The notes under the pieces were generated by a model. That model saw only the letters and a list, made by a program, of their open reading frames with translations. It did no database searches and was not told the origin of the DNA. From assembly GCA_900313115.1 (NCBI GenBank), contig OMPX01000189.1:1-38378 (forward strand): DNA of 38,378 nt, read 5' to 3'. Made by a program: the position numbers and the translations under genes. Source of the DNA: an uncultured bacterium. GTDB lineage: Bacteria; Cyanobacteriota; Vampirovibrionia; Gastranaerophilales; Gastranaerophilaceae. Of the stretch, positions 3,756 to 30,823 are shown piece by piece. Numbering within the stretch: position 1 is the first letter of the stretch; each line of letters opens with the position of its first letter.

Positions 3756-4412
3756 ATGAAAAGATTTTTAATAATATTGCTGGCAGGCATGTTTTCAGTT
3801 TTGAATGTTTATGCGCAAGACACAGAGCAAGTTGAAACAGTTGAGCAGGAAGCTCCTTCCATTGATTTACAATTAACTCAGCCGCAAAAAACGTATGATT
3901 TATCACGTACAAAGTATCAAAAAAAATTAAGTGCCGATAAAACAGTTGTAAATGAACAACAAATTCAGGATTATTCAAAAACTAATCCAAATCAAAAAAG
4001 AACGGCTACGTTTAAGAATAAAAAGAAGTTCAAAGATGTGTCGGTAGGTTCAAACAGTACCCATACAACAACCTCCGATACATATTCAGGTTCAAGTACG
4101 TTATATACAGAGTATGAAAAGAAAAATTTTAAACTTAATTCCGGATACACAAAAAATACCACTCCAAATCAGGCAAATCAAGATAAAGGAACTCTTTCTG
4201 TTACTCCTGAATATAAAATCAATAAACACGTTTCTATTCAAAACAAATATTCTACTGATTTGAATAATAACAGTAAAAAAGGAGAAGTAAAGGTTAATGT
4301 TCAGCCTTTCAAAGATGACAGAATGGATATGGGTGTAGGTGTCGGACAAAAATTTTCAGGTTCTTCACAATCAAGTTCACAGGTTAATTTTTCAACAAAT
4401 ATCAGGTTTTAA
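3756..4412 (+). CDS. Exported protein of unknown function, possibly outer-membrane beta-strand type
   Basis: 218 aa, not recognised. The N-terminus is a clear Sec signal peptide (MKR, hydrophobic core, VYA|QD, cleavage after residue 20). Residues 40-90 are Lys/Thr-rich and polar. The C-terminal half alternates polar and non-polar residues and ends in NIRF, with the terminal aromatic typical of outer-membrane beta-barrel proteins. It has too few strands for a full barrel alone, so that idea is tentative. TTGAGG gives a ribosome site 8 nt before the ATG. The next gene starts 3 nt after the stop and has a similar signal peptide, so the two are very likely co-translated partners. Confidence 0.72.
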   Translation: MKRFLIILLAGMFSVLNVYAQDTEQVETVEQEAPSIDLQLTQPQKTYDLSRTKYQKKLSADKTVVNEQQIQDYSKTNPNQKRTATFKNKKKFKDVSVGSNSTHTTTSDTYSGSSTLYTEYEKKNFKLNSGYTKNTTPNQANQDKGTLSVTPEYKINKHVSIQNKYSTDLNNNSKKGEVKVNVQPFKDDRMDMGVGVGQKFSGSSQSSSQVNFSTNIRF

Positions 4413-4415
4413 TAA

Positions 4416-4676
4416 ATGAAAAAAATAATTATTATAGCTTTAATATTTATAACTGCATCTTGTGTTAATGCTCAGGATATGACTCTTCAGGAACAAGAAA
4501 TCAATCTTGATTTGAACACCGAAGTAAAACAGTATAATACAAATAATCACAAATATGATGACGGACATCAATATAAATATAACAAAGATGATGACGACGA
4601 TATGCCGCTGAATTTTGCTTCCCCAATTCAAATACTTCAAATGTATAAGCAACAGCAGGAAGATATGTTACGCTAA
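4416..4676 (+). CDS. Small exported Asp/Lys-rich protein
   Basis: 86 aa, not recognised. The signal peptide ends in SCVNA|QD (cleavage after residue 19), closely like the VYA|QD of the preceding gene. C16 lies in TASC, a poor lipobox, so signal peptidase I processing is more likely than lipidation. The mature part has a His/Lys/Asp-rich stretch (NNHKYDDGHQYKYNKDDDDD, about 43-62) that could bind divalent metal. It starts 3 nt after the upstream stop and overlaps the 3' end of the convergent HEAT-like gene by 9 nt. Confidence 0.65.
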   Translation: MKKIIIIALIFITASCVNAQDMTLQEQEINLDLNTEVKQYNTNNHKYDDGHQYKYNKDDDDDMPLNFASPIQILQMYKQQQEDMLR

Positions 4677-5093
4677 ATAATCCAAAATAGCTCCGCCGAT
4701 TTCTTCATTCGGATCAAACAATTGGGGTTCTTTAGGAGGATTGATAGAATTTTGGATTAACATTTTGCACAGTGGCCCAAATGCATCAGGTACTTTAGTT
4801 TTTCGGTATACACCAGCTAAAAAGGTCTGAATATTTGGCGATTTTGTATCATTAAAACGTGCAAAAGTCGGATACATTTTATCCACACCTTTGACACCAT
4901 TTTCGATTAGTCTGTCAGCTATGTACAGTGCTTCGCAAACTTCTTTTTCATCATTAGTATTTTTCAGAGTGTTATCTAAGAGAGGAAGTGCATCTTCTTT
5001 TTTTTGTAAATAATACAAGACTTTAACCCCGTCAAACTGACAGTAGTTGCGATTTATAGTTGGCATTTGTACATTTACATTGCAATTTTCCAT
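4668..5093 (-). CDS. Small helical protein, HEAT-repeat-like
   Basis: 141 aa when started at the ATG at 5093; a TTG two codons upstream is the alternative. It is not firmly recognised. From about residue 20 the protein is a series of short amphipathic helices (ALPLLDNTL, EVCEALYIADRLIENG, PNIQTFLAGVYRKT, AFGPLCKMLI) that look like HEAT/ARM repeats, so a scaffold or binding role is likely. It is the last gene of the minus-strand operon starting near 7450, 20 nt after the 502-aa membrane protein. The start codon lies inside a perfect 14-bp tandem duplication (5088-5115) that also creates a decoy ATG. No good Shine-Dalgarno sequence is visible, so translation may depend on coupling. Confidence 0.68.
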   Translation of the reverse strand: MENCNVNVQMPTINRNYCQFDGVKVLYYLQKKEDALPLLDNTLKNTNDEKEVCEALYIADRLIENGVKGVDKMYPTFARFNDTKSPNIQTFLAGVYRKTKVPDAFGPLCKMLIQNSINPPKEPQLFDPNEEIGGAILDYLA

Positions 5094-5115
5094 TTTCAAT
5101 TTTCCATTTTCAATT
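5088..5115 (-). repeat. 14-bp tandem duplication at a gene start
   Basis: Two perfect copies of TTCCATTTTCAATT (plus strand) at 5088-5101 and 5102-5115. They span from the stop codon of the 502-aa gene to the start of the HEAT-like gene. Each copy carries an ATGGAAAATTG on the minus strand. The 5107 copy reads ATG GAA AAT TGA and stops; the 5093 copy opens the real gene. Confidence 0.8.
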
Positions 5116-6622
5116 ATGAATAAACGTATGGAGCACCATTTTTGATTTCATTAAGTATTCCGTCTGCAACAATTTTTAATTCTTCATTAGATTTTCCGTT
5201 CTTCTTTTGACGATAAAATTCATCACATAAAGGTTGTATAGACGAATCTTTTTTAGATTTAAAATTCCTTAATTCTGTTGAAACAAGTCGTTTTTGCAGA
5301 TTTAATTCGGTTTCTGCGTTATATTTTTTAACCTGAACATCTTTGATTGCACCAATTGAGAGTTCGCCTAAATAAGCAGTTGCGGTTGCGCCTGTAATAC
5401 CAAAGAACAAGTTTTTAAACTGTTCATTTTTTGAATCAATCAGCCAATTATAGAAAAAGGCTTTGTAGTCAGAAACGTGTGAATAGAATGTATTTCTGTC
5501 TTGACCCGAACCGCCTAATGCACTGTTTGCACGTTCTGTTGATTTATTTATATTAAAGATATTATCAGCAATAAATTTTTGTTTTTCTTCATCATTGTTC
5601 CATTTCATTCGTTCGGCTGTAGATGCAACAAAATCAGAGTCAGCCTGAATATCTACAAACAGGTTTGATATTTTCTCTTTATCCATTTTATTTGCCAAGT
5701 TATAGCCTTCTTCGCCCATTTGCTCAGGAGTACGTTTCCCGACATTATCTGCGATTTCGGATATTATACCTTTTACTTTGTCAACTCCACGTTTCATTTC
5801 ATTGTTGCTTGCTCTTAAATTTTTCATTGAAGCATAGCCTAAACCTACAATTGCAAGAGAAGATGCTGCCCCAAGTGCAAGATAACCAAGATTTTTCAAA
5901 AATCCGTTTTTCTCTTTCTTTTCTTCAGGTTTGTCCCCTCTGAAACTTATCTGATGACTGTTAAAACTGTTTTTTGATAAATTTTGATTTTCAGGAGTTA
6001 ATGCTCCGTTAAATTCTTTAGCTTTATCTGCAAGCATACTTCTTATAATTTGCATTTTTCCAGAGAAGGATTGAGTTTCAACGGCAATAAGATTCTCTTG
6101 CAAATCTTTTTGGATATCCGCTTCTTTTTTCTTTACCCAAACATCTCTAAAACCTTCACAAAAAGTTTTACCCATAAATGCCATAGAACTCAATACCCCG
6201 AGCCCTGCTGCCGCCATAGCGGTTTTTTTGTTCGGGTTTGCTACAAGTCTGTATATTGCCTGATCCATCTCCTTGTTGATACAGACATTACGTGTTAATG
6301 AAGGTAATTTTTTTGCCAAATCAACATCAATGGCATCTTTTGATGATTTTTTTATTAAACCTGTAATTCCTGTTAACACTGCCATAAAACCAACCGTAGC
6401 ACCTGCTATCGGAAGAAGTCCTTTTTCTCTTTTGGTATTCTTTTCATATAATTTGTCAGGTAATTCAACAGTATCTGCTATAAGCAAAGAATTATAAGAT
6501 TCACTGAGAGGTAAATTTGAATTTACTAACACACCTTCTTTTACAGAATCAGCAACTTTTTTCTGAGTCTGAGTTAAATTTCTTTTTATTCGTTGGCTTT
6601 CAATATCGTTTGTGATTATCAT
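5114..6622 (-). CDS. 502-aa multi-pass membrane protein, lineage-specific
   Basis: Not recognised as a known family. Predicted membrane segments lie near residues 69-90, 134-153, 245-263 and 405-425, each Gly/Ala-rich, separated by long charged and helical regions. The two halves look roughly alike (each has a membrane pair followed by KKKEADIQKDLQENL or KKYNAETELNLQKRL), which suggests internal duplication. Two copies of a short motif shared with other proteins of the window occur at 184-189 (QSFSGK) and 225-231 (ISFRGDK). AAGGAT gives a ribosome site before the ATG, and the gene starts 3 nt after the CPHG gene ends, so the two are tightly coupled. Likely an inner-membrane protein; its role is unknown. 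Confidence 0.75.
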   Translation of the reverse strand: MIITNDIESQRIKRNLTQTQKKVADSVKEGVLVNSNLPLSESYNSLLIADTVELPDKLYEKNTKREKGLLPIAGATVGFMAVLTGITGLIKKSSKDAIDVDLAKKLPSLTRNVCINKEMDQAIYRLVANPNKKTAMAAAGLGVLSSMAFMGKTFCEGFRDVWVKKKEADIQKDLQENLIAVETQSFSGKMQIIRSMLADKAKEFNGALTPENQNLSKNSFNSHQISFRGDKPEEKKEKNGFLKNLGYLALGAASSLAIVGLGYASMKNLRASNNEMKRGVDKVKGIISEIADNVGKRTPEQMGEEGYNLANKMDKEKISNLFVDIQADSDFVASTAERMKWNNDEEKQKFIADNIFNINKSTERANSALGGSGQDRNTFYSHVSDYKAFFYNWLIDSKNEQFKNLFFGITGATATAYLGELSIGAIKDVQVKKYNAETELNLQKRLVSTELRNFKSKKDSSIQPLCDEFYRQKKNGKSNEELKIVADGILNEIKNGAPYVYS

Positions 6623-6625
6623 ATT

Positions 6626-7342
6626 TTATCCTTTATTGGTTAATGCTTTTTTATTTTCTTCTTCGACTTCTTTTTCTATTTCTTTTTTTAGTTTGTCAGA
6701 AATCTTTTCAAGAAGTCCTTTTAGTTTATCTAAATGTTTTTCAAAAGCAATCATAATTTCATTTTCATCTTCATCGTTGTCAGCAGTGAAAATTTCAAAA
6801 ATAGATTTGATTTTTTTCTTGATTGCTTTGGCAAATTCTGACACTTTTTTACTTATTGCAGCTTTTAATTCACCATATACCGCAGTTAATTTATCTGAAA
6901 TATCAACTAATTTTGTAGTTATGTTTGCGACTGTCTGCATAACATTAGCCGGTAAATCTTTTATTGTCTGAAGGATTGGCATCAGAACTTTTTGTGCAAC
7001 AACTGCAAGAGGTTTTGTTAAAGTATGCTGACTCATAGTTTGAATAAATTGGTTTAATCTTTCCGCAGATTTAGCCATATTTGCTTCAAATTGAGCGATA
7101 TTAACTAATCTTTGTTGGAAGTCGGCTTCTTTTGCCATTCTTGCATTTTGTAAAGATTTCAAAAACGCACCAATTGCAGCGCATTCATTCCAACTCATTT
7201 CTCCGGGTTTTGCAGAAAAATCGGCAGTCTGAACTTTAGAGCCTCCTCCCATTCCTGAACAGATAGGGCAAGCTCCCGGTGGTAATCCGTGAGGACATAA
7301 TCCTGCACGAACAGAACCTACTGCTGTTACACTTGCTGTCAT
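6626..7342 (-). CDS. CPHG/CPIC-motif protein with amphipathic helices
   Basis: 238 aa, no known function. Near the N-terminus is a compact Cys/His motif, CPHGLPPGACPICSG (C16, H18, C25, C28), which looks like a metal-binding knuckle. My recollection that similar motifs recur in gut Melainabacteria proteins is unverified. Residues 60-230 are almost wholly helical and amphipathic, ending in a Lys/Glu-rich coiled coil. No signal peptide is seen; it may bind a membrane peripherally through the helices around 95-150. AGAGG lies 7 nt before the ATG. The gene sits 9 nt after a 32-codon small ORF and 3 nt before the 502-aa membrane protein, so the three probably act together. Confidence 0.75.
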   Translation of the reverse strand: MTASVTAVGSVRAGLCPHGLPPGACPICSGMGGGSKVQTADFSAKPGEMSWNECAAIGAFLKSLQNARMAKEADFQQRLVNIAQFEANMAKSAERLNQFIQTMSQHTLTKPLAVVAQKVLMPILQTIKDLPANVMQTVANITTKLVDISDKLTAVYGELKAAISKKVSEFAKAIKKKIKSIFEIFTADNDEDENEIMIAFEKHLDKLKGLLEKISDKLKKEIEKEVEEENKKALTNKG

Positions 7343-7351
7343 TTTAACCTC

Positions 7352-7450
7352 TTAGATAGTTGTTTTATCTCTGACAGAATTTTGCAACGAAATTCTGTTA
7401 AATTCGAGTATTCCGACTTTTACGGCTCCGGCAGAGTTGGAGATATCCAC
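7352..7450 (-). CDS. Putative 32-aa small protein, GTG start
   Basis: A 32-codon frame opens at GTG 7450 with CGAGG seven bases upstream. The peptide starts (M)DISNSAGAVKVGILEFNRI and ends VRDKTTI. Its stop is 9 nt before the CPHG gene, giving operon-like spacing. Upstream on the same strand is TATAAT (about 7478-7473), which would give a short leader. Support: good ribosome site, correct position, non-repetitive composition with several GC-richer codons unlike nearby intergenic DNA. Against: short, with a non-ATG start. It could instead be a leader region. Confidence 0.42.
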   Translation of the reverse strand: MDISNSAGAVKVGILEFNRISLQNSVRDKTTI

Positions 7451-7542
7451 CCCATTTCCTCGTACAATTATTCTATTATATAAAAAGTCCTAATCAATAG
7501 TTTGTAAATTATTGTTTAGCGTATGATATTTTATTATTAAAT

Positions 7543-16733: not shown

Positions 16734-16760
16734 AAAAGGTTAGATTTAATCTAACCTTTT
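16734..16760 (-). terminator. Terminator after the PSYTG small-protein gene
   Basis: A 13-1-13 palindrome (AAAAGGTTAGATT, T, complement) whose left arm ends in a T run on the minus strand. The stop codon of the 88-aa gene (16751-16753) is inside the right arm. It shares the GTTAG...CTAAC core with the repressor operator 65 bp away, so it might also bind the repressor. Confidence 0.75.
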
Positions 16761-17017
16761 ATATCTATATGCTTATTTCTTGATAATTTTATACCTGCTT
16801 GTTGTAAGTCTTTCTTTAAAGAATGTGCCATTATTTTTGTTTCCGGACTTAAAACTATTTTACTGTCAGAGCCCATTTCAAATACAGCAGGAATACCTCT
16901 ACCTGTAATAATGTCTTTTACCTGATTAAACAAGTACGGAACTTTCTTGTTTTCATTGCATCTTACAGTATATTTGTAACCTGTATATGATGGGCTGTTG
17001 CTGATTGTAAGATTCAT
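16751..17017 (-). CDS. 88-aa lineage-specific protein with PSYTGYK motif
   Basis: 88 aa from the ATG at 17017, chosen because AAGGGG lies 6 nt upstream; the longer frame starts without a site. No known family. It is a small alpha/beta protein with PSYTGYK at residues 9-15, one of the short aromatic motifs shared by several proteins of the window. The rest alternates strands and helices (YLFNQVKDIITG, AHSLKKDLQQAGIKLS). No signal peptide or membrane helix. TTTACA and GACAAT 17 bp apart (about 17061-17033) give a plausible promoter just upstream. A Fur-type palindrome lies further upstream. Confidence 0.7.
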   Translation of the reverse strand: MNLTISNSPSYTGYKYTVRCNENKKVPYLFNQVKDIITGRGIPAVFEMGSDSKIVLSPETKIMAHSLKKDLQQAGIKLSRNKHIDIKG

Positions 17018-17103
17018 ACTTACCCCTTTTCTTATTGTCACACTTCTAGTAAAACATGTAAACAAAATATTTTCTCTACATTTATCAGCAATCGTTACTA
17101 AAA

Positions 17104-28548: not shown

Positions 28549-28881
28549 TTATGCCAATATTGAAAAATCTATTGTTGACGCGTCAGATTTCATCTCAGGT
28601 GCATCATCAATATATTTTACGTTTTTATCGATTTCTTTTAGACGTCTGAATATAAAATTATCTGCTGATTTATCTTTTCCAACAACAACAAAACCTTCTT
28701 TTGAAGGAGTAACTCCTGCTTGACCTAAATTTATTGAATTTCTTACTTTTTGAGCTGAGCCCACAATACCTTTTACCTCAAAGCAGCTATTTAATTGGTC
28801 TACAAATTTTCCCATATTTTTCATTGCTTGCTTAGGTATGATTGTAGATGTAAATGCCGGTGTTGATTGAATGTTATTCAT
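28549..28881 (-). CDS. 110-aa lineage-specific protein with PAFTS motif
   Basis: No known family. The N-terminus MNNIQSTPAFTSTIIPKQAM carries PAFTS at residues 8-12, identical to the motif in the 410-aa nucleotidyltransferase. The remainder is a small alpha/beta domain (FVDQLNSCFEVKG, GFVVVGKDKSADNFIFRRLKEIDKNVKYI) of a size and style like the 88-aa protein at 16751, which may be a distant relative. No signal or membrane segment. AGGAG precedes the ATG at the usual distance. Confidence 0.68.
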   Translation of the reverse strand: MNNIQSTPAFTSTIIPKQAMKNMGKFVDQLNSCFEVKGIVGSAQKVRNSINLGQAGVTPSKEGFVVVGKDKSADNFIFRRLKEIDKNVKYIDDAPEMKSDASTIDFSILA

Positions 28882-29592: not shown

Positions 29593-30823
29593 ATATTCTG
29601 ACCAGTAATTTAGACGGGTCTTTTAATTTCAAAGCTATATTTCTTGCCAGAGCAGAAATAGCGTTGTGACCCCCAAATTTTTCAGCACGTTTCGCTTTTT
29701 TCATGAATCGGTTAAATTTAAATGCTAATACTTCAATATTACTCAAACCTTCCGGCATTGCATCAGAGGCAGGATTTAAAATTGTTTTGAAAATATCGGC
29801 TTCATATTCTTTGTTAGCAGGAACATCTATTTTTGTTCCGAGATATTTATTTGAAAGATTTGTAAAAGCATAAGTAAATTCTTCTAATTTGGTTCCATTA
29901 AGTTCTTTAGGGAAATTTAGACCATTTTCCTTAATATGCATTCCCCAATCTGTTAAATGATGGAGATCTATACCTCCAAAAACATAATGCTGAAATGCAT
30001 GTTGGGCTAAAAATACTGTGTTAAATTCTTTAGACGGAACTAAAATTTTTGTACCGTTTGGTAAAATTTGTTTTCTTGGATTTAATGTTTTATGCAAATA
30101 TTCATCAATTTTTCCCGCTTCCAACAAAATTTCTTTATTAACGAAGTATCTGTGATTTTCAATTCTGACTCCATTGTATTCAAACTCACTATGTTTAATT
30201 TTAGGCATCTTATAATCATCAATAGAGTAACCCTCAGAAAACATCATATTGTCAATTATGTCAGAAGCATTTGATCTGTTTTGGGTAACAGTTCCTTTTA
30301 TTCTGGTAAATACATCAATATCACCGCCAAATCTGTGTTGCGGAACGGGATAATTCATAGATAACCCAACCCCTTTTAGTTGGACTGTTTCTATATTTTC
30401 TTTTTCAAATTTTTTAGATAATGTATCTAGTATTTTTTCCTGAAGTTCGTGTTTTTGTTCAGTTTCTTTTCGGACTTCAAACATTTGAATTGCAATATCT
30501 GTCGGAATTGTTCTCTTAGGAAGTTTATAGCATGAATCCGATGCAATAGCTGTAACAGAGGCCTCATTTGCTATTTCTAAAAGTTTTTCCCAGTCGTAAC
30601 GATTTGCACCTTTAAAAGCTTCTGTATCAACATTTCCACCCATCAAAGATGATTTTAGTAATGACAAAAGCATCTTTGTCGGTTTCTCGTTTGGAGAAAT
30701 ATTATTTATTTTTTCAACTTTATCAACGTTTAAAGTTTGTTTTTGAGATGTAAATGCAGGTCTGTTCCATGCAATATCAGATGGTCTATATGAATTTTTA
30801 TAATTTTGTGTAACGGGGTACAT
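29591..30823 (-). CDS. NTP_transf_5-like nucleotidyltransferase with PAFTSQK N-terminal extension
   Basis: 410 aa. The core (about 95-330) matches the uncharacterised nucleotidyltransferase family: helical start, then LKGVGLSMNYPVP and R-F-G-G-D-I-D-V with the paired catalytic Asp (about 168), and the later HHLTDWGMHI segment. Such enzymes move nucleotides or modify proteins and glycans; the substrate is unknown. The first 60 residues are an unstructured extension that includes PAFTSQK (22-28), the motif shared with unrelated small proteins here. No signal peptide. AGGAGAAA lies before the ATG. It ends in a shared terminator with the 142-aa gene. Confidence 0.78.
   Translation of the reverse strand: MYPVTQNYKNSYRPSDIAWNRPAFTSQKQTLNVDKVEKINNISPNEKPTKMLLSLLKSSLMGGNVDTEAFKGANRYDWEKLLEIANEASVTAIASDSCYKLPKRTIPTDIAIQMFEVRKETEQKHELQEKILDTLSKKFEKENIETVQLKGVGLSMNYPVPQHRFGGDIDVFTRIKGTVTQNRSNASDIIDNMMFSEGYSIDDYKMPKIKHSEFEYNGVRIENHRYFVNKEILLEAGKIDEYLHKTLNPRKQILPNGTKILVPSKEFNTVFLAQHAFQHYVFGGIDLHHLTDWGMHIKENGLNFPKELNGTKLEEFTYAFTNLSNKYLGTKIDVPANKEYEADIFKTILNPASDAMPEGLSNIEVLAFKFNRFMKKAKRAEKFGGHNAISALARNIALKLKDPSKLLVRI

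Follow-up and report, generated by a model that had tools for sequence, protein, structure and literature searches.

What does an operon of three uncharacterised genes do in the Gastranaerophilales, gut bacteria related to cyanobacteria, and what controls it? The question is raised by contig OMPX01000189.1 (assembly GCA_900313115.1), a stretch of 38,378 nucleotides (nt) from an uncultured member of the Gastranaerophilaceae, referred to here at its full length as the window. Its source is a draft genome of 226 contigs and 2.05 Mb that is 94% complete. Three genes, called here CPHG, MEM and HEAT, occupy positions 4668-7342 on the minus strand, and their leader contains a cobalamin (vitamin B12) riboswitch. 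B12 control of the operon is nearly certain. The reading favoured here, held with about even confidence, is that B12 auxotrophs use the locus as a cobalamin-responsive operon, whose proteins capture the vitamin, bring it into the cell or receive it once imported. The features are, in order of transcription:

7470-7497, minus strand: sigma-70-like promoter match (TTGATT-16 nt-TAGAAT) from a consensus scan, just 5' of the aptamer, a position that fits
7398-7475, minus strand: AdoCbl-II (cobalamin) riboswitch aptamer, RF01689, 40.2 bits with the Rfam covariance model
7374-7398, minus strand: 9-bp hairpin 3' of the aptamer in the minimum-free-energy fold, probably part of the expression platform
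7352-7450, minus strand: 32-codon frame that overlaps the aptamer; not a gene by this analysis
6626-7342, minus strand: CPHG gene, 238 amino acids (aa), with a CPHG-x5-CPIC Cys/His motif near the N-terminus followed by a long helical stretch
5114-6622, minus strand: MEM gene, 502 aa, with two related halves and four hydrophobic peaks; its AlphaFold2 model is weak
4668-5093, minus strand: HEAT gene, encoding 141 aa when translation begins at the ATG and 143 aa when it begins at the TTG at 5099, predicted as an ARM/HEAT-type helical stack

Riboswitch control of the operon

The aptamer is the sole Rfam match in the window and scores above the family's gathering score of 36.5 (E = 2.4e-8 in a short search). 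In an alignment of leaders from relatives, picked by motif, five of eight predicted stem pairs changed on both sides, in up to 16 of 39 sequences. A covariance model built from these 39 leaders, which match it by construction, gives the window aptamer 77.6 bits. As a whole, the leader shows no folding advantage over shuffled sequences (z = 0.52), and promoter-type matches are not enriched in the region (8 found vs 11.3 expected in shuffles), so that the promoter match is weak alone.

An earlier note, made from the letters of the window, had taken the 32-codon frame for the first gene of the operon. This frame overlaps the aptamer, and the changes seen in relatives keep the stem. When the same GTG was placed at 59 switch hits, at least 32 codons were open in 23 and a stop was met within 20 codons in 22. 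The peptide reading was rejected, since the conservation is accounted for by RNA structure and the frame is not maintained.

With the model built from the 39 leaders, a switch was found 5' of CPHG at all but one of 81 loci (the window and L103-L182), the one miss (L133) being a contig that starts inside MEM. The distance from these 80 switches to the CPHG codon is 88-418 nt, with a median of 120, and four more hits were found elsewhere. In a second set (L063-L102), 34 of 35 family loci have a switch and the five look-alikes have none, positions having been compared by eye. Six loci of family f3 (L088, L090, L092, L093, L095, L098) carry the classical Cobalamin riboswitch RF00174 in place of RF01689: as judged from sequence, the riboswitch class changes there and B12 control stays. 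In four loci (L070, L136, L150, L161) a second riboswitch was seen on the opposite strand, approximately 100-300 nt upstream and pointing away from CPHG.

A simple terminator was found in 50 of 93 leaders. Under a stricter scan the terminator arm was complementary to the 5' strand of the aptamer in 39 of the 45 leaders that contain a strict terminator, as against 5% for shuffled strands, and an unbound aptamer strand could therefore block the terminator. This suggests that in these relatives the element is an OFF switch, with expression lowered by cobalamin. The minus strand of the window leader contains no terminator, and control there is therefore probably exerted at the translation start.

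The switch also keeps informative company. Twenty regions around other RF01689 hits in the order were read: the first genes were NrdD-NrdG in 13, a TonB receptor with a FecCD permease, ATPase and binding protein in four, and MetE in one. In one other region, L193, switches face CobT and a tetrapyrrole-like cluster; the last, L195, gave no clear reading. When one region per kind was checked with NCBIfam, the Btu-like proteins scored below the cut-offs of the Btu families. From these neighbours (NrdDG, the BtuBCDF-like locus, MetE) it follows that the regulon comprises B12 uptake and B12-independent isozymes. Riboswitches of such genes usually repress when B12 is present. In the regions read, MEM is the only membrane protein under RF01689 outside the rare Btu-like loci.

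The three proteins and their gene order

The coordinates of CPHG, MEM and HEAT, and the gaps of 9, 3 and 20 nt between the four minus-strand frames (HEAT taken from ATG), are as the earlier note gave them. Its expectation that the genes would be neighbours in related genomes was borne out. Across 121 loci (the window, L063-L102 and L103-L182, several being one genome place reached twice) the order CPHG-MEM-HEAT was found in 77 and CPHG-MEM in 37. One further locus reads CPHG-HEAT-HEAT, one reads MEM-HEAT with its upstream side off the contig end, and five are coiled-coil look-alikes without the motif. Among the 58 genomes searched, the window's own included, CPHG was found in 47 and MEM in 46. 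At L080 and L203 the arrangement is switch-CPHG-HEAT-HEAT, without MEM.

None of the three proteins matches a curated family above cut-off (Pfam, NCBIfam), in keeping with the earlier note, which had recognised no family. Membership of a known family was also sought in PADLOC, PHROGs and PDB sequence searches, and across all five resources coiled-coil-type or low-score matches were the only result. Family-profile searches found no enzyme-like domain, and Pfam and NCBIfam found no energy-coupling factor (ECF) module or BacA-type domain. No paper on such an operon was found in the open-licence literature, where no search by the names of these proteins was made.

In CPHG, residues C16, P17, H18, G19, G23, C25, P26 and C28 are invariant in all 33 aligned proteins. 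The four Cys and His positions singled out beforehand (C16, H18, C25, C28) are thus fully conserved, and they form a zinc-knuckle-type ligand set (C-x-H plus C-x-x-C) that is a predicted metal site, for which zinc, cobalt or cobalamin are possible. In the redundant set the strict motif fits 112 of 115 CPHG hits, five look-alikes having been dropped; the other three (L093, L095, L142) were read as retaining C-x-H and C-x-x-C, L142 being seen only in part. No signal peptide is evident by eye. PADLOC matches to LmuB, ZorA and LeoBC (E 1e-4 to 6e-3) span the helical stretch only. The look-alikes (L089, L094, L096, L097, L099) are profile hits with no motif, no MEM and no switch, and were excluded from family counts; a first alignment of 41 CPHG hits still included them. 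Next to them are genes for a family of proteins, 270-326 aa long, that look secreted.

The apparent internal duplication of MEM was confirmed by profile comparison: residues 100-215 align with 385-490 (hhalign probability 98.4, E = 6e-15, 82 columns). None of its invariant columns is a Cys. A scan of viral contigs with MEM found no relative that would point to a viral origin. In a sample of the phylum, MEM was matched in 139 of 329 genomes; the full-length matches listed all belong to one order, the Gastranaerophilales, as the suggested lineage restriction requires, and none of the seven genomes listed from a different family within the class has a match. A scan of named genomes gave 393 related stretches, and the best 80 of the 393 are mostly labelled Gastranaerophilales or uncultured; these titles are depositors' labels, a few of which name other taxa.

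HEAT (143 aa) is predicted as a stack of six helices with a mean pLDDT (predicted local distance difference test) of 92.3, which agrees with the helical-repeat protein proposed before. Like HEAT/ARM repeat proteins it would be a stack of helix pairs; unlike them, none of its 24 members has a HEAT or ARM match in Pfam. The best VIA matches of the model reach Z 11.5 to ARM/HEAT chains and about 11 to many solenoids, values that a common helical arrangement also reaches. A likeness to CpcE/CpcF (Foldseek E 0.44, root-mean-square deviation 8.7) was too weak and was dropped.

B12 need and candidate functions

Distribution was surveyed in 192 genomes of the order, each at least 90% complete, with CobQ as the mark of B12 synthesis. 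MEM is present in 177, HEAT in 163 and RF01689 in 181 at E 0.01 (146 over cut-off). B12-dependent NrdJ is common (134 genomes over cut-off), whereas FecCD permeases (16 over cut-off), the TonB-receptor Plug (15) and CobQ (4 over cut-off) are rare. MEM and NrdJ occur together in 127 genomes, about 120 of which lack FecCD over cut-off and none of which has CobQ. In the window's own genome NrdJ and a MetH-like fragment were found, and no FecCD, Plug or CobQ over cut-off.

The 15 genomes without MEM are four with CobQ, eight without NrdJ, two with CPHG and HEAT, and G122. The CobQ-bearing genomes (G035, G037, G041, G049) all lack MEM, and in G037 and G049 the CobQ neighbourhood looks by eye like a cobalamin synthesis cluster. 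For example, among the f3 genomes G036, G042, G046, G049 and G051, MEM is missing only in CobQ-bearing G049. An RF01689 match is absent from seven of the eight genomes that lack both MEM and NrdJ (G023, G033, G128, G158, G163, G168, G193, G199); the eighth, G199, has one 5' of NrdDG.

Cobalamin acquisition is ranked first because the operon would be made when B12 is short, because it occurs mostly in genomes that need and do not make B12, and because MEM is the only membrane protein under the switch outside Btu-like loci. In the proposed scheme, plentiful B12 would turn the operon off, as the regulon and the relatives' terminators indicate. When B12 is scarce, the cell would make MEM, its Cys/His metal-site partner CPHG and usually the putative solenoid adaptor HEAT. 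CPHG and MEM, with or without HEAT, may then capture cobalamin, carry it inwards or receive it once imported; this step is less sure. The cobalamin thus obtained would feed NrdJ and MetH-type enzymes in genomes without BtuCDF and TonB-dependent receptors. Import by CPHG-MEM-HEAT is something we infer from sequence. More tentatively, the three proteins could be a new class of cobalamin acquisition machine working without an ATP-binding cassette (ABC) importer or TonB receptors, in which CPHG would ligate the corrin cobalt or a metal gating MEM, and which would explain the vitamin supply of a whole B12-dependent order; this version is possible and somewhat doubtful. In either form, the riboswitch makes three uncharacterised proteins concrete, testable candidates for B12 acquisition or handling.

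Known systems offer partial parallels. By score the window leader belongs to AdoCbl-II RF01689, as the f3 operons belong to Cobalamin RF00174, but the genes controlled here match no curated family searched. The Btu-like loci of the order (L187, L189, L191, L192, L209) are also under the RF01689 class, whereas Pfam and NCBIfam detect none of the corresponding parts (TonB receptor, FecCD permease, ATPase, binding protein) among the CPHG-MEM-HEAT proteins. BtuM is, according to PMC6072759, a small B12 transporter: six helices, a mass of about 22 kDa and an invariant Cys that ligates cobalt. Like MEM here, it is a membrane protein put forward for B12 auxotrophs that lack BtuCDF, and cysteines would play a part in both systems. 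In contrast to BtuM, MEM is 502 aa long, shows four hydrophobic peaks and lacks an invariant Cys; the invariant Cys residues here belong to CPHG. An E. coli complementation assay for B12 uptake, with a metE btuF btuC deletion strain, exists (PMC6072759).

Several observations weigh against cobalamin acquisition. The operon has no ATPase, periplasmic or outer-membrane part, and the energy source and the outer-membrane step are therefore unexplained. A fold search with MEM gave long-helix matches only, none at E 0.001 or better and none to a transporter, and its model reached a pLDDT of 65. NrdJ over cut-off is missing in 50 of the 177 MEM genomes, and 14 MEM genomes also have a FecCD/Plug (Btu-like) locus. 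G122 has NrdJ and lacks MEM, HEAT, RF01689 and FecCD, while G032 and G201 have the switch, CPHG and two or three HEAT matches, but no MEM. HEAT is absent from the sampled g22 and f3 genomes; detached HEAT genes (L211-L218) lie elsewhere in the genome, with no riboswitch match at any of the eight loci read, and the gene is dispensable or detached in several lineages. The importer census covered FecCD and Plug; other known B12 importers are the ECF type, BtuM and BacA. Fisher tests relate the operon to NrdJ-positive, CobQ-negative genomes (p = 6e-6) and to CobQ (p = 1e-5), with counts read from listings and relatedness ignored. Within-genus contrasts are few: G023 vs G131 and G199 vs G034 agree with the B12 reading, but G122 vs its own genus disagrees.

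Some of these observations fit a role inside the cell, where the proteins would store, release, deliver or salvage cobalamin or cobalt at the membrane and would not form an importer. In its favour, CPHG combines an invariant Cys/His site with the lack of an evident signal peptide, its partners look cytoplasmic, and the operon coexists with Btu-like loci in 14 genomes. Such handling does not account for the B12 supply of the many genomes that have NrdJ and neither FecCD nor Plug, and the metal or corrinoid binding it calls for is itself a prediction; we consider it unlikely.

The regulon raises another explanation: when B12 runs short, the proteins would stand in for a B12-dependent process or make up for its loss, as NrdDG and MetE do. 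The commonest co-regulated genes are indeed B12-independent isozymes (NrdDG in 13 and MetE in one of the 20 regions), and CPHG, MEM and HEAT have no transport hallmarks. Yet no enzyme-like domain was found in them either, and B12 makers should benefit from a bypass too, whereas the four CobQ genomes lack the operon, one of them (G035) retaining MetE under a switch. This explanation is accordingly also given a low probability.

The earlier note had pictured a membrane-associated assembly specific to the lineage. The gene neighbourhood, the Cys/His site and the lineage restriction stand, but what had been taken for the first gene is a cobalamin riboswitch, which places the operon in the B12 regulon and makes it not simply a structural assembly. 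A single physical complex of all the parts is a possibility only, HEAT being absent from some lineages and lying elsewhere, without a riboswitch, at the detached loci read. A related idea, an assembly for surface, envelope or host contact with B12 as signal only, is improbable: helical, scaffold-like proteins confined to one order in the phylum sample would suit it, but the remaining regulon is B12 metabolism and operon presence tracks CobQ absence.

Neighbouring genes and other sequences

On the 3' side of the operon, two plus-strand open reading frames (ORFs; 3756-4412 and 4416-4676) whose starts resemble signal peptides run towards HEAT from the opposite direction. The last 9 bases of the second, up to 4676, are shared with the end of HEAT at 4668. 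In L067, L070, L073, L075 and L078, the gene just 3' of HEAT encodes a protein of 332-394 aa starting MGMAASQARFLGLTARK, followed on the same strand by polyprenyl-synthetase-like and signal-peptidase-I-like genes, named by eye. The MGMAASQARFLGLTARK gene set is absent at the corresponding place in the window.

Elsewhere in the window, three otherwise unrelated ORFs (16754-17065, 28552-28881, 29594-30823) have in common a short N-terminal motif, P-x-[FY]-T-[GS]. Its instances are NSPSYTG, STPAFTS and NRPAFTS, and the motif might mark proteins for sorting or processing in this lineage.

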